A stretch of 37,292 nt of DNA from Myxococcota bacterium (GTDB lineage: Bacteria > Myxococcota_A > UBA9042 > DTJE01). The stretch lies in NCBI GenBank assembly GCA_029975745.1, contig JARKOL010000159.1:1-37292 (forward strand), given 5' to 3'. The first letter of the stretch is position 1. Every line of letters begins with the position of its first letter. The notes under the pieces were generated by a model. That model was not told the DNA's origin. It was given only the letters and a program-made list of their open reading frames with translations, and made no database searches. This document shows positions 152-15,466 of the stretch, piece after piece. A program made the translations under genes and the position numbers.

Positions 152-784
152 CTAGTAGATTCCCAGGTCCATCTGCGCGTCTTCGGTCGCCATCGTCCGA
201 GGGTCCCACGGGGGGTCCCAGACCAGTTCCACGGTGGCCTCGCGAAGGCCGCGGGCCAGCAGGGCGCCCTGGCGGACCATCTCCATCAACTGGGGCGCGA
301 ATGGACACATCGGCGAGGTCAAGGTCATTCGGATGTTCGCGGTACGGCCGTTGGGCGCCAGATCGACGCCGTAGATCATGCCCAGGTCGGTGATCGGCAA
401 CCCCAGCTCGGGCTCGATCACCTGGGCCAGTCCGTCCCAGATAGCGGCCTCGGTGGCGGGTCCCGACGGACGCGCGGCCAGCTCGGCCAGCGCCACATTC
501 GCCGCCTCGGTGGCCATCGAGTCCGGATCCCAGGCGGGCTCCTTGGTGAACTCCAGGCGCCCGTCCATCAAGCCGGGGATCGTTTCCAGCGCCGCGCGTA
601 TCGGGCCCAGCAGGCGGCGCGCCAGGGGCTCCTGGGCCACGCGAACCACGGCGGTCAGCCCGTGATCGACGACATCGACCGACAGCACCAGGCCCAGGTC
701 GATGATGGAGCAGCCGGTCTCGGGCTCGATGACGGTGCGCAGGGCATCCAGAACCTGCGCGCGTGTCACGGGATCGGGCGTCAT
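152..784 (-). CDS. sufT: SufT-like iron-sulfur assembly factor with two DUF59 (MIP18) domains
   Basis: A 210-residue protein built of two tandem DUF59/MIP18-type domains, roughly residues 5-95 and 110-205. Each has the family's PE..(G/C)..I.DLG motif (DLGLV near 29, DLGMIYGV near 133). Members of this family help mature Fe-S proteins and often end suf operons. Only the second copy keeps the conserved cysteine, in TSPMCP (C160). The matching part of the first copy (RVAQEP) has none, so the first half may be structural or regulatory. The ATG at 784 overlaps the TGA of sufSU (ATGA), which points to translational coupling and fixes the start. The family call is firm; the exact role (target delivery versus general assembly) is inferred from position. 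Confidence 0.88.
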   Translation of the reverse strand: MTPDPVTRAQVLDALRTVIEPETGCSIIDLGLVLSVDVVDHGLTAVVRVAQEPLARRLLGPIRAALETIPGLMDGRLEFTKEPAWDPDSMATEAANVALAELAARPSGPATEAAIWDGLAQVIEPELGLPITDLGMIYGVDLAPNGRTANIRMTLTSPMCPFAPQLMEMVRQGALLARGLREATVELVWDPPWDPRTMATEDAQMDLGIY

Positions 785-2559
785 GGGTGACCTCCTTGCG
801 TTTCGCCGTGCGCCAGGCTTTCCTCCAGCGTCGTCCAGGGCAGCAGCGCGCACTTGACCCGGACCGGAAGGTCCCGAACCCCCTGGAGCACCTCGACGTC
901 GCCCAGGTCCAGCCCCGCCGGCAGCGGTTCCCCTCGCAGCATTGCCTTGGTCCCCGCCAGCAGCGCGCGCGCCTCGGGCAGCGTCCGGCCCTTCAGGCGC
1001 ACGGCCAGCATCGACCCGGATGCCACCGAGATCGAGCACCCGTGCCCCAGAACCTGGATGCCGGCGATCCGTTCGCCCTCCAGCCGCAGCCGCAGCGTGA
1101 CCTCGTCGCCGCACAGCGGGTTCTTGCCGGACCACTCGACCTGCGCGCCATCGACCGGTTCGCGCCCCGCCGGGTGCAGGTAGTGGTCCATCACGACCTC
1201 GCGCATCAGTCCGTCGTCCCCGAGATCCTCCCCCAAGCCCGTCCCCGCACCCGTACCCGAGCCCGTCCCCGTACCCGTACCCGTCCCCGTACCCGTACCC
1301 GTCCCCACCCCCGCCCCCACCCCCGCCCCGACCCGCGGCGCGTACTTCCGTACCACGCCCTCCAGCGCATCGACCAGCCGGTCGATCTCGGCCTCGGTGG
1401 TATGGACGGAGAACGACGCCCGCGTGGTCGCGGCAAGTCCGAAGCGCTTCATCAGCGGCTGGCAGCAGTGGTGGCCTGCCCGAACCGCGATGCCGCGCGC
1501 GTCCAGTTCCTGGGCGATGTCGTGCGGGTGGGCCGCATCCAACGTGAACGACACCAGGCTGCCGGCCCAGTCCGGCCCGGGGCCGGGTCCCAGGATCCGA
1601 AGCCCCGCCAACCGGGACAGCCGGGCGTGGGCGTACGTGCCGACGGCCCGGTCGCGCTCCGCCACGTTCGCCATCCCCAGCGCCGCCAGCCAGTCGATCG
1701 CGGCGCCGAATGCGACGGCGCCTCCGATGTCCGGCGTGCCGGCCTCGTAGCGCGCGGGGGGATCGGCGTAGGTCGAGGCATCGAGTTCGACGTCGCGAAT
1801 CATCTCGCCCCCACCCAGGAAGGGGTCCATTTCGTCGTAGCGGGACGTCCGGACGACCAGCGCCCCCATGCCGGTCGGGCCCAGCATCTTGTGGGCCGAC
1901 ACGACATAGAAGTCCGGGTCCAGCACGGCAAGGTCGATCGGCAGGTGGGGCGCGGCCTGGGCGCCGTCGATCAGCACCGCGGCCCCGACGGCACGGGCGG
2001 ACGCGACGATGCGCGCAACCGGGTTGATCGTGCCCAGAACGTTCGACACGTGGGTCACCGCGACCAGTTTCACGCGAGGCGACAGCAGTGCCTCGAACGC
2101 GGCCAGATCCAGCCGCCCGTCGTCGGTGATCGGAATCTCGCGAATCACGGCCCCGGTGCGACGGGCCAGCAGGTGCCACGGCACCAGGTTCGCGTGGTGC
2201 TCCATGCGCGTGACCAGGATCTGGTCGCCCGCGCGAACGTTGCGGTCACCCCACCCATGGGCGACCAGGTTGACGCCCTCGGTCGCGTTGCGGACGAACA
2301 CGACCGCGGATGGCGATGGCGCCCCCAGGAAGGACGCGACCTTGCCCCGGGCATCCTCGTAGGCACGGGTGGCCTCCTCGGACAGCCGGTACACGCCCCG
2401 GTGGATGTTGGCGTTCGATTCCTCGTAGTACCGGGACAGGGCCGCGATTACCGCCCGCGGCTTCTGGGTCGTCGCGGCGCTGTCCAGATAGGCCAGCGCA
2501 TGCCCGTTCATCTCGCGGGCCAGGATCGGAAACTCGCGGCGAATCGCCTGGATGTCCAA
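781..2559 (-). CDS. sufS: SufS-SufU fusion: cysteine desulfurase joined to its sulfur-acceptor protein
   Basis: A single 592-residue reading frame. Residues 1-408 are a SufS-type PLP cysteine desulfurase: SAHK with K224 as PLP lysine, and RAGHHC with catalytic Cys365 followed by an extra Cys366. Residues 410-445 are a Gly-Thr/Gly-Val/Gly-Ala repeat linker. Residues 450-592 are SufU, with the three zinc/sulfur cysteines C483 (NPLCGD), C508 (GHGCSIS) and C570 (RVKCALLPW). SufU normally takes persulfide sulfur from SufS by zinc-ligand exchange; here donor and acceptor are tethered. The TTG at 2559 is chosen because GGAGG sits 7 nt upstream and the protein then begins MDIQAIRREFP, as usual for SufS. 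The nearest upstream gene is the Rieske ferredoxin. The fusion is read directly from the sequence; tighter sulfur transfer is inference. Confidence 0.95.
   Translation of the reverse strand: MDIQAIRREFPILAREMNGHALAYLDSAATTQKPRAVIAALSRYYEESNANIHRGVYRLSEEATRAYEDARGKVASFLGAPSPSAVVFVRNATEGVNLVAHGWGDRNVRAGDQILVTRMEHHANLVPWHLLARRTGAVIREIPITDDGRLDLAAFEALLSPRVKLVAVTHVSNVLGTINPVARIVASARAVGAAVLIDGAQAAPHLPIDLAVLDPDFYVVSAHKMLGPTGMGALVVRTSRYDEMDPFLGGGEMIRDVELDASTYADPPARYEAGTPDIGGAVAFGAAIDWLAALGMANVAERDRAVGTYAHARLSRLAGLRILGPGPGPDWAGSLVSFTLDAAHPHDIAQELDARGIAVRAGHHCCQPLMKRFGLAATTRASFSVHTTEAEIDRLVDALEGVVRKYAPRVGAGVGAGVGTGTGTGTGTGTGTGSGTGAGTGLGEDLGDDGLMREVVMDHYLHPAGREPVDGAQVEWSGKNPLCGDEVTLRLRLEGERIAGIQVLGHGCSISVASGSMLAVRLKGRTLPEARALLAGTKAMLRGEPLPAGLDLGDVEVLQGVRDLPVRVKCALLPWTTLEESLAHGETQGGHP
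1237..1332. repeat. in-frame hexanucleotide tandem repeat coding the SufS-SufU linker
   Basis: About 96 bp of degenerate units of the type ACCCGT/CCCCGT on the plus strand. They encode alternating Gly-Thr, Gly-Val and Gly-Ala dipeptides (residues 410-441 of the fusion) on the minus strand. A 6-bp period keeps the frame when units are gained or lost, so linker length could vary between strains without breaking the fusion. Confidence 0.85.
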
Positions 2560-2686: not shown

Positions 2687-3001
2687 TCAGTCCTCCCGCA
2701 CCTGCACGCGGTCGCCCTCGACACGTACGGCCCACGTCCGCAACGGCGCCACGGCGGGCATCCCCGTCGCACGCCCCGATTCCAGGTCGAACCGCCCGCC
2801 ATGGTGCGCGCACTCCCACGCCCCATCCCCCGCCAGGCATCCCGACGCCAGGTCCAGATCCTCGTGCGTGCAAAGCGCATCCAGCGCGAACACGCGTTCG
2901 CCCACGCGCACCAGCATGACCGGTTCGCCTTCCACGAAGACCGTAACCGCCGCCCCGTCCCCCAGGTCGTCCACGGCCGCCACGTCCCGCCAATCGCCCA
3001 T
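2687..3001 (-). CDS. Rieske-type [2Fe-2S] ferredoxin of the suf operon
   Basis: A 104-residue one-domain Rieske protein. The cluster ligands are visible as C44-T-H46 and C64-A-H-H67. The pattern matches small soluble Rieske ferredoxins (NirD/dioxygenase-ferredoxin type), and there is no membrane segment. Rieske ferredoxins at this place next to sufD are seen in other suf operons, where an electron-supply role in cluster assembly is suspected but not proven. Two starts are possible. The ATG at 3016 overlaps the sufD stop (TGATG) but has no clear ribosome site. The ATG at 3001 has GGAGG 5 nt upstream and was chosen. Confidence 0.88.
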   Translation of the reverse strand: MGDWRDVAAVDDLGDGAAVTVFVEGEPVMLVRVGERVFALDALCTHEDLDLASGCLAGDGAWECAHHGGRFDLESGRATGMPAVAPLRTWAVRVEGDRVQVRED

Positions 3002-3015
3002 CGCGCCCTCCCGCA

Positions 3016-4209
3016 TCAGGCCGCCGCCAACGCCGTCCGCAGCCGGTCCCGGACCCGGTCCGCCATGGCCGCCACCGGCAGTCCGGACAGCACCGGCTCG
3101 ACGAAGCCCTCGACCAGCATCGCGTAGGCATCGGAACGCGTCAGCCCCCGGGACCGCAGGAAGAACACCGCCTCCTCGTCCACGGGCGCGACCGCCGCGC
3201 CGTGCGTGCAGCGGACGTCATGGTTCAGGATCTCCAGCTCCGGGATGGTCTCGGCCACCGCGTGCTTCGACAGCAGCAACGAGCGCGCCTCCTCGAACGC
3301 CTGGCTGCGCGCGGCCCCCGGGGCGATGCGCAGCAGCCCCGTGAAGATGGACCGGCTGCGATCCGCGGCGACCGCGCGCCAGGTCACCCGGCTTTCCGAG
3401 TCCCCGACCGCGTGATCCTCGACCGCCCGGAAGTCGGCACGGGCCCGACCCGCGGTGAATGCCATGCCCAGCCCTTCGACCCGGCCTCCCGGACCCCGAA
3501 TCACGGGGGCCGCCTCGACCTTCACCAGCCCCTCGGGCATCAGGATGTGGACGTGCTGGAGCGACGCATCCCGATCCACCTGGTAGGCCGCGCGGGTGAA
3601 CGCGACGCCCCCGGGACCGCCCGATTCCAGACGGGCGTGGGTCGCCGTCGCGCCCGGCCCCAGCACGACCTCGGTCACCGCCGCGCCGAATCCGGCGGGC
3701 ACGTCCAGTTCCTCGATCACGGTCGCCTTCGCCTGGGCTCCGACCAGAACCAGGGTGCGAAGCGCCGAAAGCCTCCCGCCGTCCCCGGTCCGAAAGCGCA
3801 GCACGATCGGCGCCTCCACCCGCGCCCCGTCCGGGACGACCACGACCGCCCCCGCCGAGAACATCGCGAGGTTCGCGGCCAGCAGCGCATCGTCCATACC
3901 GGACACTTCCCCCAGGCTCTCGCCGATGCGAGCCGCCAGGTCCGATGCCAGCGCCTGGCCGAACGGCAGGACCCGCACGCCGGCAGCCACCGCCTCGTCG
4001 GGCACGTCGAAGGACGCGTCCACCGCGACCACGGGCGCCTCCAGAAGTTCGCGCGTACACGCGCCTCCCGGCAACAGGGCGGCCGCCTCGGTGAACCGGA
4101 ATCGATGCGTAGCCCGGTCGGGCAACGGCAGGTCCAACGCCCGCACGGCGGCATCGGCCCGCAGATCGGCCAGGAAGGCCGGCTCGTTCTCGAATCGCTG
4201 CAAGGTCAT
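3016..4209 (-). CDS. sufD: SufD, scaffold subunit of the SufBCD complex
   Basis: A 397-residue protein with the SufB/SufD beta-helix core. Its C-terminal half shows the family motifs: a hydrophilic helix region, LLLSKHA, then ILNHDVRCTHGAAVAPVD near residues 325-345, and FFLRSRGL. SufD pairs with SufB and docks the SufC ATPase to form the cytoplasmic scaffold where clusters are built. The His in DVRCTHG corresponds to the conserved histidine region of SufD. The ATG at 4209 has a GGAG-type site 6-7 nt upstream. sufB ends 46 nt upstream and the Rieske gene follows at once. Confidence 0.93.
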   Translation of the reverse strand: MTLQRFENEPAFLADLRADAAVRALDLPLPDRATHRFRFTEAAALLPGGACTRELLEAPVVAVDASFDVPDEAVAAGVRVLPFGQALASDLAARIGESLGEVSGMDDALLAANLAMFSAGAVVVVPDGARVEAPIVLRFRTGDGGRLSALRTLVLVGAQAKATVIEELDVPAGFGAAVTEVVLGPGATATHARLESGGPGGVAFTRAAYQVDRDASLQHVHILMPEGLVKVEAAPVIRGPGGRVEGLGMAFTAGRARADFRAVEDHAVGDSESRVTWRAVAADRSRSIFTGLLRIAPGAARSQAFEEARSLLLSKHAVAETIPELEILNHDVRCTHGAAVAPVDEEAVFFLRSRGLTRSDAYAMLVEGFVEPVLSGLPVAAMADRVRDRLRTALAAA

Positions 4210-4255: not shown

Positions 4256-5665
4256 CTAGCCCACCGACCCGGTCATCTCGAGCTGGATCAGGCGGTTCAA
4301 TTCCACCGCGTATTCCATCGGCAACTCCTTGACGAAGGGCTCGATGAACCCGTTGACGATCGTCAGGGTCGCCTCGTCCTCGGTCAGCCCGCGACTGCGC
4401 AGGTAGAACATCTGGTCGTCGCCGACCCGCGACACCGTTGCCTCGTGACCGATCCGCGCGCCGTTCTCGGCGATCTCCATCGTCGGGTACGTGTCCGACC
4501 GCGAGCGCTCGTCCATCAGCAGCGCATCGCACTTCACCGACACCTTCGCGCCGGTCGCATTCGGGTACACCTTGACCAGCCCGCGGTAGGACGCCCGCCC
4601 GCCATCCTTGCTGATCGACTTGCTGGTGATCGTCGATGTCGTGTTCGGCGCCGCGTGAATCACCTTGGCGCCCGCGTCCTGGTGCATGCCCTCGCCGGCG
4701 AACGCAATCGACAGCACCTCGCCGTGCGCCCGCTCGCCGACCAGGTAGATGGCCGGATATTTCATCGTCAGGCGCGACCCCAGGTTGCCGTCAACCCACT
4801 CGACCTGGGCCCCCGCATGGGCCTGGGCCCGCTTGGTCACCAGGTTCAAGACGTTCTTCGACCAGTTCTGGATCGTGGTGTAGCGGACCTTCGAGCCGGG
4901 CAGCGCGATCACCTCGACCACCGCCGCGTGCAGGCTGTCCGTCGCGTACGTCGGCGCCGTGCATCCCTCGATGTAGTGAACGCTGGCCCCCTCGTCCACG
5001 ATGATCAGCGTCCGCTCGAACTGGCCCATGTCCTTCAGGTTGATGCGAAAGTAGGCCTGGAGCGGGATCTTGACATGCACGCCCGGCGGCACGTACAGGA
5101 ACGAGCCACCCGACCACACCGACGAGTTCAGCGACGCGAACTTGTTGTCATTGGGAGGAACGACCGTGCCGAAGTACTTGCGAACCAGTTCCGGGTGATC
5201 GCGCAGCGCCGAGTCCATGTCCGTGAAGATCACGCCCTGCTTCTCGATCTCGGCCTGGATCGAGTGGTAGACGACCTCCGACTCGTACTGGGCGCTGACG
5301 CCAGCCAGGAACTTGCGCTCGGCCTCGGGCACGCCCAGGCGCTCGAACGTGTCCTTGATGCCCTGGGGAACCTCGTCCCAGGTGCGCCCCTGGCGGTCGG
5401 CCGCACGGACGAAGTAGATGATGTTCTCGAAATCGATCGCGTCCAGGACGGCACTGTTTCCCCAGCGCGGCATCGGGCGATCGCGGAACATCCGCAGGGC
5501 CTTCAGCCGGAACGCCAGCATCCACTCGGGTTCCCCCTTGAGCCGGCTGATATCGCGGACAACCGCTTCGGACAGGCCGCGGCGCGTCTTGTACACCGAC
5601 CGATCCGGGTCCGAGAAGCCGTACTGGTAGTCGCCGACCAGTTCCGGCGAAGTCTGCGCTTCCAT
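4256..5665 (-). CDS. sufB: SufB, core scaffold of Fe-S cluster assembly
   Basis: A 469-residue protein of normal SufB length and strong family identity. Recognisable blocks are [27 protein letters not shown] with a conserved cysteine, [10 protein letters not shown], and the C-terminal YLRSRGL followed by [13 protein letters not shown]. SufB is the subunit on which the nascent cluster forms from sulfide delivered by SufS/SufU. The start at ATG 5665 is set by AAAGGAG 7 nt upstream; the open frame extends 22 codons further without a ribosome site. It follows sufC by 20 nt. Confidence 0.97.
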
Positions 5666-5685
5666 GGCAACACTCCTTTCCGGGG

Positions 5686-6477
5686 TCACGCGGATACGGC
5701 CTGGGACGCCACCGCGTCGGCCTCGACCCACTCGTAGCCCCGGGATTCCAGTTGGGTGGCCAGTTCGGGCCCGCCCGACATCGCGACGCGACCGTCCAGG
5801 AACACGTGGACATGGTCGGGTCGCACGTACTCGAGGATTCGCTGGTAGTGCGTCACCAGCACCACCGACACGCCCTGCGCGATGGCGCGGTTGATGCCCG
5901 CGGCAACCGTGCGCAGCGCGTCGATGTCCAGGCCCGAGTCGGTCTCGTCCAGCAGCGCCAGCTTCGGCTGCAGCAGCAGCATCTGGAGGATCTCCAGGCG
6001 CTTCTTCTCACCGCCCGAAAACCCGTCGTTGACGTGGCGCGTCGCGAAGGAGTCGGGAATGCCCAGGTCCGCGAAGGCCGCCGACAGCTGCTTGCGGAAC
6101 TCGCGGGCCGGGACCTCGCGCCCCATCGCCCGAAGCGCCGACCGCAGGAACTGCGCGACACCGACACCCGGAATCGCGACCGGGTACTGGAACGCCAGGA
6201 AGATGCCCGCCCGCGCCCGCTCGGTCACGTCCATCCGCAGGAGGTCGCGCCCCTGGTAGCGGATCTCGCCGCCATCCACGACGTAGGCCGGATGCCCCAT
6301 GACGACGTTGGACAGCGTGCTCTTGCCGGACCCGTTGCGCCCCATGATCGCGTGGACCTCGCCCGGCCGCACGACCAGATCGACCCCGTTCAGAATCGGC
6401 TTGCCAGAGATCGATGCGCGCAGCCCCAGGACTTCAAGAATCGGCGCCGCGACACCCGTGTTGGTTTCGTGATTCAT
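5686..6477 (-). CDS. sufC: SufC, ATPase subunit of the SufBCD complex
   Basis: A 263-residue ABC-type ATPase with Walker [10 protein letters not shown] (residues 46-54), signature FSGGEKKR, Walker [13 protein letters not shown] and switch histidine in VTHYQR. The ETDSGLD form and the absence of any membrane partner are typical of SufC, which powers conformational change in SufB-SufD. Its ATG at 6477 overlaps the TGA of the Rrf2 regulator (ATGA), so the regulator and first structural gene are coupled. GGGAG lies 9 nt upstream of the ATG. Confidence 0.97.
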
Positions 6478-6980
6478 TCGAAAATACTCCCGCTTTCGTT
6501 CGAACTCGCACCGGCGCCCTCGCTGCCTGCCGCGTGGGCCACAGCCGCGGGCCGCCAGTTCCGATCGCCCTCCATCCGGACAAGATCCTTCAGGGTCACA
6601 TTGGACAGCAGATCCGCCACCACCTGGCGCAGCGCCCCGAAGACGCGCCGCAGTCCGCAGTCGGGCGCACGCTCGCACGCCGACAGGGCCGGCGCCACGC
6701 AGCGCCCCGTCCGAAGGGCCTCGCCCGAGAACGCCGCAAAGGCGTCGTGGAGGGTAATCGTCCCGGGTTCCCTGGCCAGCCGGATGCCGCCGTGAACCCC
6801 CCGGGTCGTCTCGACCAGACCCGCCTGCCGCGCCAGCCCCACCAGTTTCGCGACGTACTGGGGCGACATCCCCTCGGCGGCCGCCACTTCGGGAATCGTC
6901 GCCGACGTGCCGCGGTCCCAGGCCTGCGCCAGCCGCATCAGGCACCGGACGCCGAACTCTTCGGTGGCGCTGACCTTCAA
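6474..6980 (-). CDS. Rrf2-family iron-sulfur regulator of the suf operon
   Basis: A 168-residue Rrf2/IscR-family winged-helix repressor. The N-terminal wHTH (MKVSATEEFGVRCL, then SPQYVAKLVGLARQAGL and TTRGVHGGIRLAR) is followed by three cysteines, C94, C102 and C108 (C-x7-C-x5-C), of the type that bind an Fe-S cluster in IscR. It probably senses cluster supply and represses its own operon. The chosen start is TTG 6980, which has GAGG 5 nt upstream and gives the canonical Rrf2 N-terminus. The frame is open to ATG 7058, but that would lie upstream of the promoter. The last 30 residues (Ser/Ala/Gly-rich) are poorly conserved in type. Confidence 0.9.
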   Translation of the reverse strand: MKVSATEEFGVRCLMRLAQAWDRGTSATIPEVAAAEGMSPQYVAKLVGLARQAGLVETTRGVHGGIRLAREPGTITLHDAFAAFSGEALRTGRCVAPALSACERAPDCGLRRVFGALRQVVADLLSNVTLKDLVRMEGDRNWRPAAVAHAAGSEGAGASSNESGSIFE

Positions 6981-7007
6981 GGGCACCTCGCAAGCGTCGC
7001 AACCAGG

Positions 7008-7040
7008 ACTAATATGGTCAAAGTTTACTGATATGTCAAG
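7008..7040 (-). promoter_or_regulatory. suf operon promoter with overlapping direct-repeat operator
   Basis: On the minus strand, TTGACA (7039-7034) is followed after 17 nt by CATATT (7016-7011), a good sigma-70-type pair that ends about 30 nt before the TTG start. The same stretch read on the plus strand holds two near-identical copies, ACTAATATGGTCAA (7008-7021) and ACTGATATGTCAAG (7027-7040). They are 19 nt apart, one covering each promoter element. This is the obvious site for autorepression by the Rrf2 protein. The promoter is clear; the operator assignment is inferred. Confidence 0.65.
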
Positions 7041-7108
7041 ATTCACCGAGACCCGCACCGTCGAGATTGCAAATCACCTGAATAGATGGAGGGTTTGACC
7101 CTGATGCA

Positions 7109-9681: not shown

Positions 9682-10809
9682 TCAGTACGGGTCGTGAATC
9701 CGGACCACCCGCGGGCTGATCTGGCAGGTGACCTCGTAGGGGATCGTTCCCAGCATCCGGGCCCATTCCTCGCCGGTGATTCGGGCATCCCCGCTTCGCC
9801 CCATCAGCACGACCTCGTCACCGACCTGGACGTCCGTCACCGGGCCCAGATCGACCATGCTCTGGTCCATGCAGACGCGCCCCACCACGGGGTAGCTTCG
9901 GCCCCGGATCAGCACCCGGCCCCGGTTCGAAAACAGGCGGTTGAACCCGTCCGCGTAGCCCGCGGGAATCGTCGCGATCACGGTGTCCTGGGACGCCGTC
10001 CACGTGCGCCCGTACCCGATGGACGTGCCGGCGGTGACGCACTTCAGGAACGACACGCGCGTCACCAGGGTCATCGCCGGATGCAGTTCGATGGTCGCAG
10101 GGGTCTGGGGATCGGGACGATAGCCATAGATCATGATGCCCGGTCGGACCAGGTCCATCCAGGCCGACGTGTGGGCAAGCACGGCTCCGGAGTTCGCGCA
10201 GTGGACCAGAAGCCTGCGCCCGACCGCCGCCTGCACGGCGTCGGCAACACCCCGAAACCGGTCGATCTGGGCCCGGGTCCACGAGGGGTCGGCGGCGTCG
10301 CTGGAGGGCAGATGCGTCATCACGCCGCCCAGCATGACGCCCGGCGCTTCCCGAAGCCGCATCGCCACCGCCACGGCCTGGTCCGCGGGAACGCCGACCC
10401 GACCCATGCCGGTATCGACCTTCAGGTGGACGGCCACGTCCCGCCCGGTCGCCTGCGCGGCATGACCGACCGCGACGGCCTCGTCGTCGCTGCACACCGC
10501 CAGGGTGACGCCGGCCGCGATGGCCCCGGGCAGTTCCCACGAAAACGTCGGCCCGAACTTCAGCAACGGCAGGTGGATCCCGGCGTCCCGCAGTTCCCGG
10601 GCCTCGGGCACCGTCGCGATGCCAAGCCAGTCGGCGACACCCGTGTCCTGGGCCATCCGCGACACCGCGACGGCCCCGTGTCCATAGGCGTTCGCCTTGA
10701 CCGCGATCAGGATCCCGCGGTCCGAGCCCACCGCCGCACGAATCGCACGCAGGTTGTCCCGGATTGCCCCCAGGTGTACCCGGGCATGGGTCGCGTAGTC
10801 GAGGGTCAT
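9682..10809 (-). CDS. alr: alanine racemase
   Basis: A 375-residue fold-type III PLP enzyme of normal Alr length. The PLP lysine is K38 in AVKANAYGHG, and the second catalytic base is Tyr266 in SIGYGRTW. Other Alr marks are VDTGMGRVG, HCANSGA, VRPGIMIYGY and PVVGRVCMDQ. It interconverts L- and D-alanine. The ATG at 10809 overlaps the orr stop codon (ATGA), so it is translated as part of the ornithine operon. The 2-amino-4-oxopentanoate thiolase of this pathway releases alanine as the D isomer in the characterised system, so Alr may serve catabolism here as well as peptidoglycan synthesis. Whether the genome has another alr cannot be seen. Confidence 0.95.
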   Translation of the reverse strand: MTLDYATHARVHLGAIRDNLRAIRAAVGSDRGILIAVKANAYGHGAVAVSRMAQDTGVADWLGIATVPEARELRDAGIHLPLLKFGPTFSWELPGAIAAGVTLAVCSDDEAVAVGHAAQATGRDVAVHLKVDTGMGRVGVPADQAVAVAMRLREAPGVMLGGVMTHLPSSDAADPSWTRAQIDRFRGVADAVQAAVGRRLLVHCANSGAVLAHTSAWMDLVRPGIMIYGYRPDPQTPATIELHPAMTLVTRVSFLKCVTAGTSIGYGRTWTASQDTVIATIPAGYADGFNRLFSNRGRVLIRGRSYPVVGRVCMDQSMVDLGPVTDVQVGDEVVLMGRSGDARITGEEWARMLGTIPYEVTCQISPRVVRIHDPY

Positions 10810-11885
10810 CCGCGCATCACCACCTTCTGGACGTAGGGACTGGTACTGAGCGCCAGCAACGCCCCGTACCCCGGCATGAACGCCAGTTCGTCGCCGACCT
10901 TGATCTTGGCCTCGGCGTCCTCCACGTCAAGGATCAGGTGATCGCTGCTGCCCCCCAGAACGCGGACCCCCGGCATCTCGGGCTCGATGCCATCGACCAC
11001 GACGTCCTGCCGACCGACGTTGCAGATGGCGCGCAGCCGCATGCCGCGATCCTCGAACTCCGGCGTGCCCCCGAACGCGTCCTGCCCGCGATCGCCGATG
11101 GGAACCGAAGGCTTGCGCTCGACCTCCACGACCTCGGCCACCATGCGGAACGTGTCCTGACGGGTGCCGGGCCAGGGGCTTCGGTCGATGACGTTCCGAC
11201 CCAGGACGATCGCCTCGCCGATCCGGAAGTGGTTGACCTGCCGAGGCATGCCCCCACTGGCGATCAGGGGCAGGTTCGCGCTGTTGCCCCCGGACAGCAG
11301 TCCCAGCTCCAGGCCCGTGGCCTGGCGGCATCGATCCCGAACGTCCACCAGAGCCTGCATGTTCTCCAGTGTCGGGATGACGCCCCAGTAGCAGGCCAGG
11401 TTGCACCCCAAGCCGGCCACCTCGATCCCCGGCAGGCCGGCGGCGCCGCGCACGATCTCGATCGCCCGATCGGGCCACACACCCTCGCGCAGGTCCCCGA
11501 CATCGACCATCACCACGACCTGGTGACGCGCCCCCTGCAGCACCGCGGCGTCGGACAGCAGCCGGATCGTGTCCAGGTTGCTGTTCAGCGAGATGTCGGC
11601 GCATCGCACGACCTCGGCCGCGCAACTGGGCGCCGGAATCCGCAGCAGCATCAGGGGCCGACGAATCCCCGCCTCGACCGCCGCCTGGAGGTTGCGCATC
11701 CGGCTGTCCGCGACCATGTCGGCGCCGCCGGCCTCCAGGGCGTGCGCCACGGCGGGGTGGGCGCACGTCACCTTGGTCACCGCGGCCACCTGCGCCCCGT
11801 GCCGGTGGCACAGGTCGATGACCGAGCGGGCGTTCGCCGCGATCCGGTCCGGGTAGATTTCCAGGCGGGGCGTGCAGACCGACAT
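10806..11885 (-). CDS. orr: ornithine racemase (alanine/ornithine racemase family)
   Basis: A 359-residue PLP-barrel racemase, distinct from the neighbouring Alr. K38 in VTKVTCAHP is the PLP lysine; other marks are ADSRMRNLQ, SLNSNLDTI, VMVDVGDLREG, LSGGNSAN and LRIGEAI-like HFRIGEAIVLG. The sequence matches the family containing clostridial Orr, which turns L-ornithine into D-ornithine, the substrate of ornithine aminomutase. Its place directly after oraE and the GlmL-like gene supports ornithine over alanine as substrate. The ATG at 11885 has AAGGAGG 8 nt upstream, embedded at the end of the preceding gene (4-nt gap). Confidence 0.9.
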   Translation of the reverse strand: MSVCTPRLEIYPDRIAANARSVIDLCHRHGAQVAAVTKVTCAHPAVAHALEAGGADMVADSRMRNLQAAVEAGIRRPLMLLRIPAPSCAAEVVRCADISLNSNLDTIRLLSDAAVLQGARHQVVVMVDVGDLREGVWPDRAIEIVRGAAGLPGIEVAGLGCNLACYWGVIPTLENMQALVDVRDRCRQATGLELGLLSGGNSANLPLIASGGMPRQVNHFRIGEAIVLGRNVIDRSPWPGTRQDTFRMVAEVVEVERKPSVPIGDRGQDAFGGTPEFEDRGMRLRAICNVGRQDVVVDGIEPEMPGVRVLGGSSDHLILDVEDAEAKIKVGDELAFMPGYGALLALSTSPYVQKVVMRG

Positions 11886-11889
11886 CCGG

Positions 11890-13236
11890 TCATCCTCCTT
11901 GGCTGGCACCTTCCTTCGCGACCCAGCGCCGAAACGTCGCCCGGACATCGTCCGGGAAGACCTGGGCCAGGGTGCCCAGGGCGCTGAATCGATATTGATC
12001 GTCCACGAGGATCGTCGCGGTGGGCTCGGGCAGCAGGTGACGGCCCGCACCGGTACAGACGGCACGAAGGCAGTCCGCCGCACCCGACACGCGGGTCAGC
12101 GCGCCCCCGGTCGCCACGACCCACTGGACCGCCGTCAGATCCTTGCCCTTGACCACCGTCCGGCGCCCGGTGGGGGTGTACACGTCGGACACGACTCCCG
12201 CATGGCGCCGCGCCGCCAGGACGACCGCCTGTCCGCACAGCCACCGGGTCAGCTCGCGCTGGGCCTCGGTGCTCGGCACGGCGGCCAGGTCCCTCAGCCG
12301 CTCGCCGGCGTCGTCCTCTCCGGACAATGCGGCGACGCTGCCGGCGTTGACGAAGACTCCCAGGTCCCCCTCGACGGTCCGCTTGGCGACGGGCTCCGGC
12401 TCGATCAGGCGGGACTGCCATCGCGCGCTGCCCTGGGTGACGCTGTGGACGTCGGTGGTCGCGCCGCCGACGTCGAACACCACGCAGTCCCCGGCGACCT
12501 CGGCAAAAAGCTCGGCCGCCTGCAACACCGCCCCGGGCGTGGGCAGGATGGGGTGGCTCGTCCGTTCCGCCAGGCGCGCCATGCCCGGCGCATGCACGAT
12601 GTGGCGGTTGAACGCCTCGTGGACCCGTCGCCGCAGCGGCTCGATGTTCAGGACGTCCACCTCGGGGAACACGTTGTCCGCGACCCAGATCTCGGCACCG
12701 GACTGCCGGAACGCCTGGACCACGGCCCCGCGGGCCGCGACGTTCCCGGCGTACAGGAGGGGCACGCCCAGGCCCAGCCCCGCCAGCCGCTCGGCGTTGC
12801 GCACCACGATGCCGCGCTCGCCGTGATCGACCCCGCCGGCCAGCAGCACCAGATTCGGCAAGGCGGCCCGGATCTCGTCCAGCTGGAAGTCGTCCAGTTC
12901 GCCGGCCGTCACCATCCGGACGATGCCGCCGGCCCCAAGCGCCGCCTCGCGCGCCGCCCGCGCGGTCATCGAGGCCGTCAATCCGTGGACCGTCATCCGC
13001 AGCCCGCCCGCGGCCGAGCTGTTCACGAACGTCGGGATCCCATCGGGGACCCATCTCGAACGCGCCGACAGGTCGGCCAGGGCCGCGTCCACCCCGATTC
13101 CCACGTCGCCGCCGGCCACCGACGTCGGCGCGAACCCCTGGGCCACGACCTCGAACCCGCCTTCGGGCAGGCGCGCGAAGCCGTTCGCCTTGGTGATGGT
13201 CGAACCGACCTCGATCGTCAGGATCTCGATGCCCAC
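11890..13236 (-). CDS. GlmL-like ATPase of the ornithine degradation cluster (mutase reactivator candidate)
   Basis: A 448-residue protein of the GlmL/MutL family in the actin-like ATPase superfamily. Visible nucleotide-binding motifs are EVGSTITKANGF near the N-terminus (phosphate 1), VFDVGGATTDVHS in the middle (phosphate 2) and VVATGGALTRV late (adenosine). Relatives sit beside B12-dependent glutamate and ornithine mutases and are thought to reactivate or protect them; this is not firmly proven for ornithine aminomutase. GTG 13236 is preferred because GAGGGG lies about 6 nt upstream and gives the start MGIEILTIEVGST. ATG 13242 directly abuts that purine run. It lies between oraE and orr, as in other ornithine clusters. 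Confidence 0.87.
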   Translation of the reverse strand: MGIEILTIEVGSTITKANGFARLPEGGFEVVAQGFAPTSVAGGDVGIGVDAALADLSARSRWVPDGIPTFVNSSAAGGLRMTVHGLTASMTARAAREAALGAGGIVRMVTAGELDDFQLDEIRAALPNLVLLAGGVDHGERGIVVRNAERLAGLGLGVPLLYAGNVAARGAVVQAFRQSGAEIWVADNVFPEVDVLNIEPLRRRVHEAFNRHIVHAPGMARLAERTSHPILPTPGAVLQAAELFAEVAGDCVVFDVGGATTDVHSVTQGSARWQSRLIEPEPVAKRTVEGDLGVFVNAGSVAALSGEDDAGERLRDLAAVPSTEAQRELTRWLCGQAVVLAARRHAGVVSDVYTPTGRRTVVKGKDLTAVQWVVATGGALTRVSGAADCLRAVCTGAGRHLLPEPTATILVDDQYRFSALGTLAQVFPDDVRATFRRWVAKEGASQGG

Positions 13237-13261
13237 TGGCATCCCCTCGAAACGCCCGCCG

Positions 13262-15466
13262 TCACACCGCGCCGCGAGCCTTCAGCACCTTGACCATCGC
13301 GTTGACGACGTGCAGCCCCTTGGTGCCCCGCCCGAACGTCGCATCCATCCCCGTCTCCCGGGCCATCTCGCGGTGGACCTGGGTCCCGCCGGCCACCAGG
13401 ACGACCCGGTCCCGGATCCCCTTCTCGACGCACAGTTCCGCCAGCTTCCGCATCTGGGCCCGATGAACGTCGTTGTGGCTGATGATGGTCGAGATCAGGA
13501 TCGCGTGCGCCCCGGTCTCGACCGCCGCATCGACCAGCTTATCCACGGGCACCGACGTGCCCAGGTAGTGGTAGCGAACCCCGTACTTCTCGATGCCGCC
13601 GTGCTTGATGTCCAGGATCTCGCGCAGCCCGACGCTGTGCTCGTCCTCGCCGACGGTAGCCGCGACGACCTTCAGGCCGACGGCCTTGACCGCGTCGCGC
13701 AGTTCCTGCTCGGGCAGCAAGGTTTCCTTCTCGGGGATCTTCAGGGTCGCGCGGTCGATGTCGAACCCGACCTTGCCCTTGACCTCGACGAAGCAGCCCT
13801 CGGCCGGGTGCAGGACCATGGTGTGGATCACCTCGGGGTCCGCCAGCCCCATCTTCCTGGCCATCTCGACCGCGTACACCGGCGCGATGTCCTCGTTTTC
13901 GGGAACGAACAGCTGGATCAGGACGGTGCCGTCGCCGGCCCACTCGGCCTCGGGCCGAATCCTGCCCCCCTTGCGGTAGGGCAGCGTCTTCTCCAGGCGC
14001 TTGTGGCAGTTGTCGTCCGGGTCCAGTTCGTCGATGAACACGATCTTCGCGGGGTTGCACAGCGTGCATCCCCCGATCGGGTCGCAGGCCTTGGCCGTCC
14101 CCGAAGGCAGGTGGTTTTCCCCGAAGTGGTCGCACACGGGCGCCATGTAGTCCGGGTCGCGCGCCACCAGCGACCCCGCGCCAACCCCGCCGTTGCCGTC
14201 CCGGGCAATCCCGTCCCCGTTGCGTTCCGGGTACTTGGCCGAATCGACGAAGAAGCCCCGCTCGACCGCGGCGAAATACCCGCCGACCTCCAGCACCTCC
14301 TCCAGGAAGGCGACCGAGCGCTCCTTGATGTCCCGCACCATTTCACCCAGCGGCCCGTCATGGCGCAGGGACAGCAGTTCCTGGATGCCGTCCAGGGCGG
14401 CCCACGTCTGCTTGACCGTCTGGACGCCCCGGATGTTGTTGTAGTGCCACGGAACGTTGCGCCCCTCGTCCGGGGTGATGGTGCTCTGGATGTCGGCGCG
14501 CGTCAGCATCGAGATCAGCGTATCGACCGTGTGCGTGCGGGTGGCCTCCTCGATGTCGGCCTCGATGTACCGGGTGTTCTGCTGGGCCCGCATCTTGTAT
14601 TCGCTGAAGAAGTCCCGCAGCGCCACCGCGTAGGGCAAATCGAACCAAAGTTTCGGGGCCGGCGGGGAGTTGGGCGGGACCGTGGACAGGCCGATCAGCG
14701 CCTTGTCCATGCCGACCGCGACCGAGTACGCGCAGTTGATGCCGTGCTGGACCATCAGTTCCGGCATGACCAGCCAACCGGCCTTGGCGGTGGCGTTCGC
14801 GTTGTGCGCACCGTCGATCTGGAAGATTCGGGCGCCTGCCATGACGCGCTTCGCCTCGGCGGCATCGACGAAGGAACGGTACATGTTCACGTTGCGATAC
14901 AGCACGTTGTACTGCGGATCCTGGTGGGCGCCGTTGATGCCCTCCTCGGCGAACAGCACCGCGACCTCGGGCCCGGCCACGCCGGACACGTAGCTGTGGA
15001 AGTTGATGGGCCGCCCGACCTCGGCCTCGATCAGGTCGCAGGCCTTGCGGCTGGCCCGGATCTGCTTGCGCGTGATGGGAACGCCCCCGATGCCCTCGGG
15101 CGTGCCCTCCAGCAGGCCGTCGATGTGGCTCTGGCCCGTCGTCCGGATCACCATCAGGTGGTCCGCCCCGTGCCATGCGGCCATGCGCATCCGGCGAATG
15201 TCGTCCTCGAACCGGCCCGACGCGATCTCGGTCGTCACCACGCAGGCGGGCTGCGGGTCGATGTGGTCGAAGTACTTGGACGCAGGCAGGCCAATGGACC
15301 GCTTCAGGGGCAACGACATGTCGCGGTAGTGGAACGGTCCCATGTCGAGGCCGCCCTCGGGCTTCGTCCGCCAGGTCCATCCCTTGCGCGGCGGGTGGTA
15401 CCCCTCCAGGCCCTCCAGAATCGCCTCGATGTCCAGTTTCTCTTGTACGTTCGGTGCCTTCTTCAT
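13262..15466 (-). CDS. oraE: D-ornithine 4,5-aminomutase large subunit (B12- and PLP-dependent)
   Basis: A 734-residue OraE with a TIM-barrel catalytic part and a C-terminal Rossmann B12 domain. The cobalamin motif D-x-H-x-x-G is DEHSVG at 608-613, with H610 as axial ligand. K621 in DIKHGG is the expected PLP lysine. The 11-residue distance between them equals that of the well-studied Clostridium sticklandii enzyme (H618/K629, from memory). It moves the delta-amino group of D-ornithine to C4 by a radical mechanism, giving 2,4-diaminopentanoate. The ATG at 15466 has GGGAG 8 nt upstream. The small subunit gene is 37 nt upstream and the presumed reactivator follows. Confidence 0.96.
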   Translation of the reverse strand: MKKAPNVQEKLDIEAILEGLEGYHPPRKGWTWRTKPEGGLDMGPFHYRDMSLPLKRSIGLPASKYFDHIDPQPACVVTTEIASGRFEDDIRRMRMAAWHGADHLMVIRTTGQSHIDGLLEGTPEGIGGVPITRKQIRASRKACDLIEAEVGRPINFHSYVSGVAGPEVAVLFAEEGINGAHQDPQYNVLYRNVNMYRSFVDAAEAKRVMAGARIFQIDGAHNANATAKAGWLVMPELMVQHGINCAYSVAVGMDKALIGLSTVPPNSPPAPKLWFDLPYAVALRDFFSEYKMRAQQNTRYIEADIEEATRTHTVDTLISMLTRADIQSTITPDEGRNVPWHYNNIRGVQTVKQTWAALDGIQELLSLRHDGPLGEMVRDIKERSVAFLEEVLEVGGYFAAVERGFFVDSAKYPERNGDGIARDGNGGVGAGSLVARDPDYMAPVCDHFGENHLPSGTAKACDPIGGCTLCNPAKIVFIDELDPDDNCHKRLEKTLPYRKGGRIRPEAEWAGDGTVLIQLFVPENEDIAPVYAVEMARKMGLADPEVIHTMVLHPAEGCFVEVKGKVGFDIDRATLKIPEKETLLPEQELRDAVKAVGLKVVAATVGEDEHSVGLREILDIKHGGIEKYGVRYHYLGTSVPVDKLVDAAVETGAHAILISTIISHNDVHRAQMRKLAELCVEKGIRDRVVLVAGGTQVHREMARETGMDATFGRGTKGLHVVNAMVKVLKARGAV

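Follow-up and report, generated by a model that had tools for sequence, protein, structure and literature searches.

The sufSU Gene and Its Genomic Context

The window analysed, which is the whole stretch of 37,292 nucleotides of contig JARKOL010000159.1 from a Myxococcota bacterium (GCA_029975745.1; a 408-contig draft, here G000), carries on its minus strand a suf operon with the order rrf2-sufC-sufB-sufD-Rieske-sufSU-sufT. The Rrf2-family regulator (6474..7058; TIGR00738, 80 bits, cut-off 73) holds a position like that of risR in Myxococcus xanthus (PMC9973013). It is followed by sufC (5686..6438, start approximate, within an ORF at 5686-7002; TIGR01978, 316 bits, cut-off 213), sufB (4256..5731; TIGR01980, 700 bits, cut-off 346), sufD as a separate gene (3016..4209; SUFBD_core 4e-56; TIGR01981, 207 bits, cut-off 222), a gene for a small Rieske [2Fe-2S] ferredoxin (2687..3016; PF00355, 6e-17), the fused gene sufSU (781..2559) and a sufT-like gene encoding a tandem pair of DUF59 domains (152..784; PF01883, two stretches). 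Frame translation of 784-2559 (minus strand) gave 592 residues free of stops, starting with a TTG at 2559 that has GGAGG upstream, and the stop of sufSU overlaps the start of sufT (ATGA).

The same operon order is common to eight relatives with the fusion. The sufT DUF59 match covers about 200 residues also in G003, G009, G011 and G012, and only about 100 in G006, G007 and G013. The Rieske ferredoxin gene between sufD and sufSU is kept in most of the fused relatives, no match being found in G007 and G013. Elsewhere in the window, positions 9682-15466 (minus strand) contain alanine racemase genes at 9682-10809 and 10806-12083, the second recognized by its N-terminal domain only, and near them an ORF (13262-15466) with D-lysine 5,6-aminomutase alpha, ornithine aminomutase dimerisation and B12-binding domains; this region is possibly an amino acid fermentation cluster.

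Domains and Active-Site Residues of the SufSU Protein

The initial annotation had read sufSU as one frame joining SufS and SufU, in agreement with the results for the two curated NCBIfam models, both of which scored above their cut-offs on the 592-residue protein. TIGR01979 (SufS) gave 534.5 bits (cut-off 475.1) for residues 6-406 and TIGR01994 (SufU) 129.1 bits (cut-off 92.5) for residues 451-583, both in P0001 numbering, which is the numbering from TTG = 1 plus one. Pfam searches with the protein matched Aminotran_5 (1e-136) and NifU_N (5e-15). The SufS domain, a type II cysteine desulfurase (residues 2-405; 1345..2556), was also seen in the AF2 model, where it superimposed on SufS 5xt5_A of the B. 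subtilis SufS-SufU complex with a TM score of 0.98. The SufU domain, a Zn-dependent sulfurtransferase (residues 451-583; 811..1209), matched the SufU chain 5xt5_D (E 1e-28). The model for the family 2A encapsulin cargo cysteine desulfurase (NF041166) was rejected as a candidate identity: the SufS part aligns with 538 bits, below the cut-off of 800, and this partial match covers profile positions 225-621 of 623, so that the long N-terminal part is missing in the SufSU protein.

The active-site residues named in the initial annotation were all present. The PLP lysine K224 (1888..1890) is invariant across the fused set, and the catalytic (persulfide) cysteine C365 (1465..1467) was found in 111 of 111 stand-alone and nine of nine fused SufS, as was H346 (1522..1524), the equivalent of the Zn-ligand-swap histidine His354 of Mycobacterium tuberculosis SufS. 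The sulfur-acceptor/Zn cysteine C483 of SufU (1111..1113; Cys40 in M. tuberculosis), the CGD aspartate D485 after G484 (1105-1107) and the further Zn/Cys ligands C508 (1036-1038) and C570 (850-852) were each conserved in all nine fused proteins and in 122 of 122 stand-alone SufU rows, which include a few loci counted twice, the independent proteins being somewhat fewer. C366 (1462-1464), directly after C365, had been taken for an oddity, a view that did not hold, as Cys occupies this position in 16 of 117 stand-alone and six of nine fused SufS, the other three fused proteins having Ala.

SufU has been distinguished by a Lys, not a His, before the third cysteine and by a longer stretch between the second and third cysteines (PMC10216065). 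In the SufU domain K569 precedes C570, the two cysteines are spaced by 62 residues, and B. subtilis SufU aligns there without gaps. Judged by the Zn-swap histidine H346, located where the SufE-type SufS of E. coli has Tyr (PMC10216065), the SufS half is of the SufU type. By the curated models and these residues, both halves are bona fide SufS and SufU.

The Inter-Domain Linker

The two domains are joined by a low-complexity linker of about 40 residues, the inter-domain distance being 52 residues in the source protein, and AlphaFold pLDDT values were below 50 for residues 415-463. The Gly-x, mostly Gly-Thr, repeat of the linker comprises 31 residues (411-441; about 1237..1329, minus strand) and is predicted to be disordered. 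TRF called it with a period of 6 (11.5 copies, 82% matches) and also with periods of 12, 18 and 24. The longest perfect run was 45 bp at period 18 and only 17 bp at period 6, so that the array is imperfect.

The number of inter-domain residues was 49 and 42 in fused relatives from two other genera and about 15 in G013, a genome of the sister family. Within a genus the length was nearly constant, with 31, 31 and 32 residues in three species of one and 27 in both species of another, while the sequence changed. The relatives' linkers are unrelated in sequence and rich in Pro, Ala, Ser and Asp; the Gly-Thr repeat was found in the sufSU gene of no fused relative. Genera thus differ in both the sequence and the length of the linker, and the repeat is the form particular to the source species.

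Hexamer arrays of the (GGGTAC)n type were detected at eight places in G000, window positions 1237-1306 among them. The other seven (loci L216-L222 on contigs C1, C2, C39, C142, C231, C252 and C274) lie in some cases at the C-terminal tails of open frames and in others where the frame is ambiguous, those on C2 and C274 being at contig ends. Other genomes of the family, such as G006, G011 and G012, also contain many of these arrays, which are seldom met in the other families of the class. In addition, a dispersed repeat with the core ACTCCACGGACGCTGCGCGTC was present in 26 copies in G000 with up to two mismatches (C39:12488-12508, C2:6816-6836, C231:8132-8152 and 23 more), compared with 0 for the reversed control. 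Some of the copies adjoin hexamer arrays. This may be a short mobile or intergenic repeat of the source genome.

Most simply, the linker is a spacer tolerant of change into which a microsatellite typical of the genome has spread. An essential or tunable role of the Gly-Thr repeat was not supported, since the relatives have unrelated linkers and the hexamer arrays are scattered genome-wide. Nor did the comparison of linker lengths proposed in the initial annotation lend support to tuning: variation from 15 to 52 residues was seen between genera and near constancy within a genus.

Distribution and Maintenance of the Fusion

When other single chains containing both SufS and SufU were sought, as the initial annotation had suggested, they were found in seven further genomes of the family and in G013, giving a total of nine genomes from at least 6 genera; the same fusions were also seen in records L053-L058. 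Such recurrence places the fused frame far beyond chance. A close SufU was found in eight of 13 same-family genomes, the source genome included, with SufS in the same frame in all eight. Separate sufS and sufU genes with a stop between them, which could have overturned the fusion, were thus found in no family member having the pair. The remaining five genomes (G001, G002, G004, G008 and G010, one of them from the source genus with 95% completeness) contained neither SufU nor SufS above the cut-off, and in these the whole SUF sulfur branch seems to have been lost or replaced.

A 65-taxon tree of SufS plus SufU, built by a quick method, placed the nine fused proteins on one side of one branch (SH-aLRT 99). 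G013 stands on a long branch, so that a second, independent fusion is possible there. The dN/dS ratios for four pairs were 0.10-0.34 for SufS and 0.05-0.25 for SufU, values that indicate purifying selection on both domains. SufE was found in none of the nine fusion genomes, and a NifU_N search of these genomes revealed no second SufU-type protein, the matches being the fusion plus one NifU-type protein or, in G013, the fusion alone. In G000, a full-length NifU with NifU_N, BFD-like and NifU C-terminal domains adjoins a class V desulfurase match (L001; C42:29411-31430), and this locus is a second Fe-S assembly route in the source genome. Because the fused proteins form one clade with low dN/dS, and neither SufE nor a second SufU was found, the fusion appears natural, conserved, maintained and functional, and most simply of one origin.

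Beyond the source order, whose members are mostly uncultured Myxococcota, the two genes were found apart. NifU_N/SufU-type matches occurred in 305 of 379 Myxococcota genomes. Another 28 Myxococcota loci, the majority with frames of suspicious length, had no fusion, sufS and sufU lying in different frames; where Myxococcota have the two genes apart, the sufS stop is about 21-30 bp ahead of the SufU domain and sufU is read in another frame. The 26 long-frame candidates from 397 Actinomycetota and 396 Acidobacteriota genomes were likewise all separate genes. Open-frame length was rejected as evidence of fusion: at these 28 and 26 loci the SufU frames were mostly of 400-765 aa, yet two genes were present, and the length misleads because the DNA is GC-rich. 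No fusion occurred either among the 74 closest stand-alone relatives from named records, which belong to Acidobacteriota, Actinomycetota, Chloroflexota, Melainabacteria and other groups. As far as these gene comparisons reach, with the best ~150 matches considered in each search and other phyla, Bacillota above all, outside the sample, the SufS-SufU fusion is rare outside the source order in the sampled Myxococcota, Actinomycetota and Acidobacteriota.

The SufS-SufU Interface

When SufS and SufU of M. tuberculosis or B. subtilis form a complex, one of the SufU cysteines gives up its place on zinc to a histidine of SufS and is then free to accept the persulfide (PMC10216065). The same work lists SufS-SufU contact residues as strictly conserved, and 14 of 16 are kept in the source fusion: H344, H346, D347, R360, G362 and H363 of SufS, and C483, G484, D485, G507, C508, S509, R567 and C570 of SufU. 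The two that differ correspond to Leu5 and Tyr9 of SufU, both at the linker-proximal end of the domain. Tyr9 of M. tuberculosis SufU forms a hydrogen bond to SufS and is called strictly conserved (PMC10216065). It was Tyr in 122 of 122 stand-alone SufU rows and in 22 of 22 further stand-alone SufU with a readable motif, compared with none of the nine fused proteins, which have F, D, M or A. A similar loss affects the Arg that follows Pro in the 'PRN' motif (117 of 122 stand-alone SufU, none of the nine fused).

In the source fusion the Tyr9 position is M452 (1204..1206) in the alignment register of the PDB match. Tyr9 is a contact residue and non-catalytic, so that the assignment of this domain to SufU, based on the model and the ligands, stands. 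The AF2 model was obtained from an alignment of 7 fused and 19 SufS rows, and with so few rows its SufU part is of modest confidence. Alignment A3, in which the fused proteins were combined with SufS and SufU from separate genes, aligned the N-terminal half of SufU incorrectly and was kept out of the folding.

With both the Tyr and the PRN Arg lost in all nine fused proteins, docking may differ from that in the known complexes. The loss is suggestive of a tether that replaces a contact; it falls short of proof, since one clade represents one or few evolutionary events. It is conceivable, though we consider it rather doubtful, that the tether took over part of the docking; SufU would then work only with the SufS of its own chain or of its own dimer, and transfer of the persulfide would be partner-locked and unimolecular. 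If this were true, the fusion would be a natural system for comparing cis and trans hand-off in the SUF pathway.

Proposed Persulfide Relay and Alternative Explanations

We consider it likely that the locus encodes a natural, conserved sufS-sufU fusion in an ordinary suf operon, whose single chain relays cysteine-derived persulfide by means of a flexible tether. C365 of the SufS domain would form the persulfide from cysteine. By analogy with the B. subtilis and M. tuberculosis pairs, H346 would take over the zinc ligand of SufU and free C483 to reach C365, the persulfide then passing from C365 to C483 of the SufU domain carried on the flexible, unstructured linker; the SufU domain would in turn deliver sulfur to SufBCD. 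The fusion would hold the acceptor at a high local concentration and fix a 1:1 stoichiometry; the latter, already claimed for the tether in the initial annotation, follows by construction from one protein with both active halves. SufS being dimeric, the SufU domain may serve the SufS of its own chain or that of the partner subunit, and in either case transfer is expected to be in cis. A single fusion event in the ancestor of the source order is probable: loss of a sufS stop that overlapped or adjoined sufU would have brought sufU into frame. Afterwards the linker would have drifted as a spacer, the (GGGTAC)n microsatellite expanding in the source species.

Other explanations were weighed against the same data. 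The joining of two genes across the repeat by an assembly or sequencing error is hardly credible: repeats do break contigs in the source genome, as the arrays at the ends of C2 and C274 show, but independent assemblies of seven other family members and one sister-family genome contain the fusion with other, non-repetitive linkers, which refutes an artefact for the fusion as such. The frame could also yield two proteins, by an internal start or by cleavage of the linker, that act in trans as usual. The low pLDDT of the linker and the start of stand-alone sufU elsewhere only about 20-30 bp past sufS would fit this, but the linker sequence is unconserved and shows neither a protease site nor a start common to the fused proteins, and we regard two products as very unlikely.

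Improbable, too, is a tunable tether, in which the 6-bp repeat would expand and contract in frame and so vary linker length and transfer efficiency within a species. The in-frame tandem array with its perfect 45-bp stretch and the range of inter-domain lengths across the clade would fit such a tether; against it stand the lack of the repeat in any relative's sufSU, the nearly constant length in each genus sampled twice or more, the short perfect run at period 6 and the scatter of the same array type over the source genome and others of the family, which looks like neutral microsatellite turnover. Decay or repurposing of the SufU half, for instance as a zinc-bound regulator, with sulfur transfer done otherwise, would account for the loss of the interface Tyr and the PRN Arg in all fused members. 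This seems unlikely in view of catalytic and zinc residues kept in nine of nine, dN/dS well below 1 and the finding of no SufE or second SufU-type protein as a substitute.

Relation to Known Systems

Mechanistic counterparts are the separate SufS-SufU pairs of M. tuberculosis (Rv1464/Rv1465; 8odq, PMC10216065) and B. subtilis (5xt5), which belong to the same families and share the zinc, cysteine and swap-histidine residues, so that by analogy the same persulfide relay may be expected in the fusion. These pairs differ from it in being encoded by two genes, in forming a transient (SufS)2(SufU)2 complex and in having the Tyr9-SufS hydrogen bond, Tyr9 being replaced in the fusion. The operon resembles risR-sufBCDSUT of M. 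xanthus, presumably a member of the same phylum, in the order of Rrf2 regulator, suf genes, sufS, sufU and sufT; however, sufS and sufU are separate in M. xanthus (PMC9973013), and the source operon adds the Rieske gene between sufD and sufSU and a doubled sufT. ABA3 and bacterial cysteine desulfurase-rhodanese chimeras likewise join a desulfurase and its sulfur acceptor in one protein; the acceptor there is a rhodanese domain and not SufU (PMC8931425).

A single chain that unites SufS with SufU and belongs to a SUF system is already known from protists, as SufSU in Monocercomonoides (PMC5348982, PMC6006210) and SufDSU in Preaxostyla (PMC10703272), and is the closest precedent. The protist proteins are eukaryotic and, according to the later papers, also include SufD, which the source operon encodes on its own; the Preaxostyla SUF genes are reported to be of prokaryotic origin, from bacteria or archaea depending on the paper (PMC5348982, PMC6006210, PMC10703272). 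No description of a bacterial SufS-SufU fusion was found in the literature searched, and the order-wide bacterial case is new to that literature, which is weak evidence of novelty, subscription papers lying outside the search.

The fusion would be a bacterial parallel to the SufSU and SufDSU proteins of protists in which the mitochondrial ISC system has been lost. Persulfide transfer from SufS to SufU, and from SufS to SufE, has been studied with two proteins that come together only briefly. With its fixed stoichiometry and high local concentration, the fusion would be a tool for kinetics and structure. The retention of linkers of 15-52 residues across the clade suggests that the linker sequence hardly matters, and a single chain in at least six genera would mean that dissociation of the pair is dispensable and that one SufU per SufS is sufficient.
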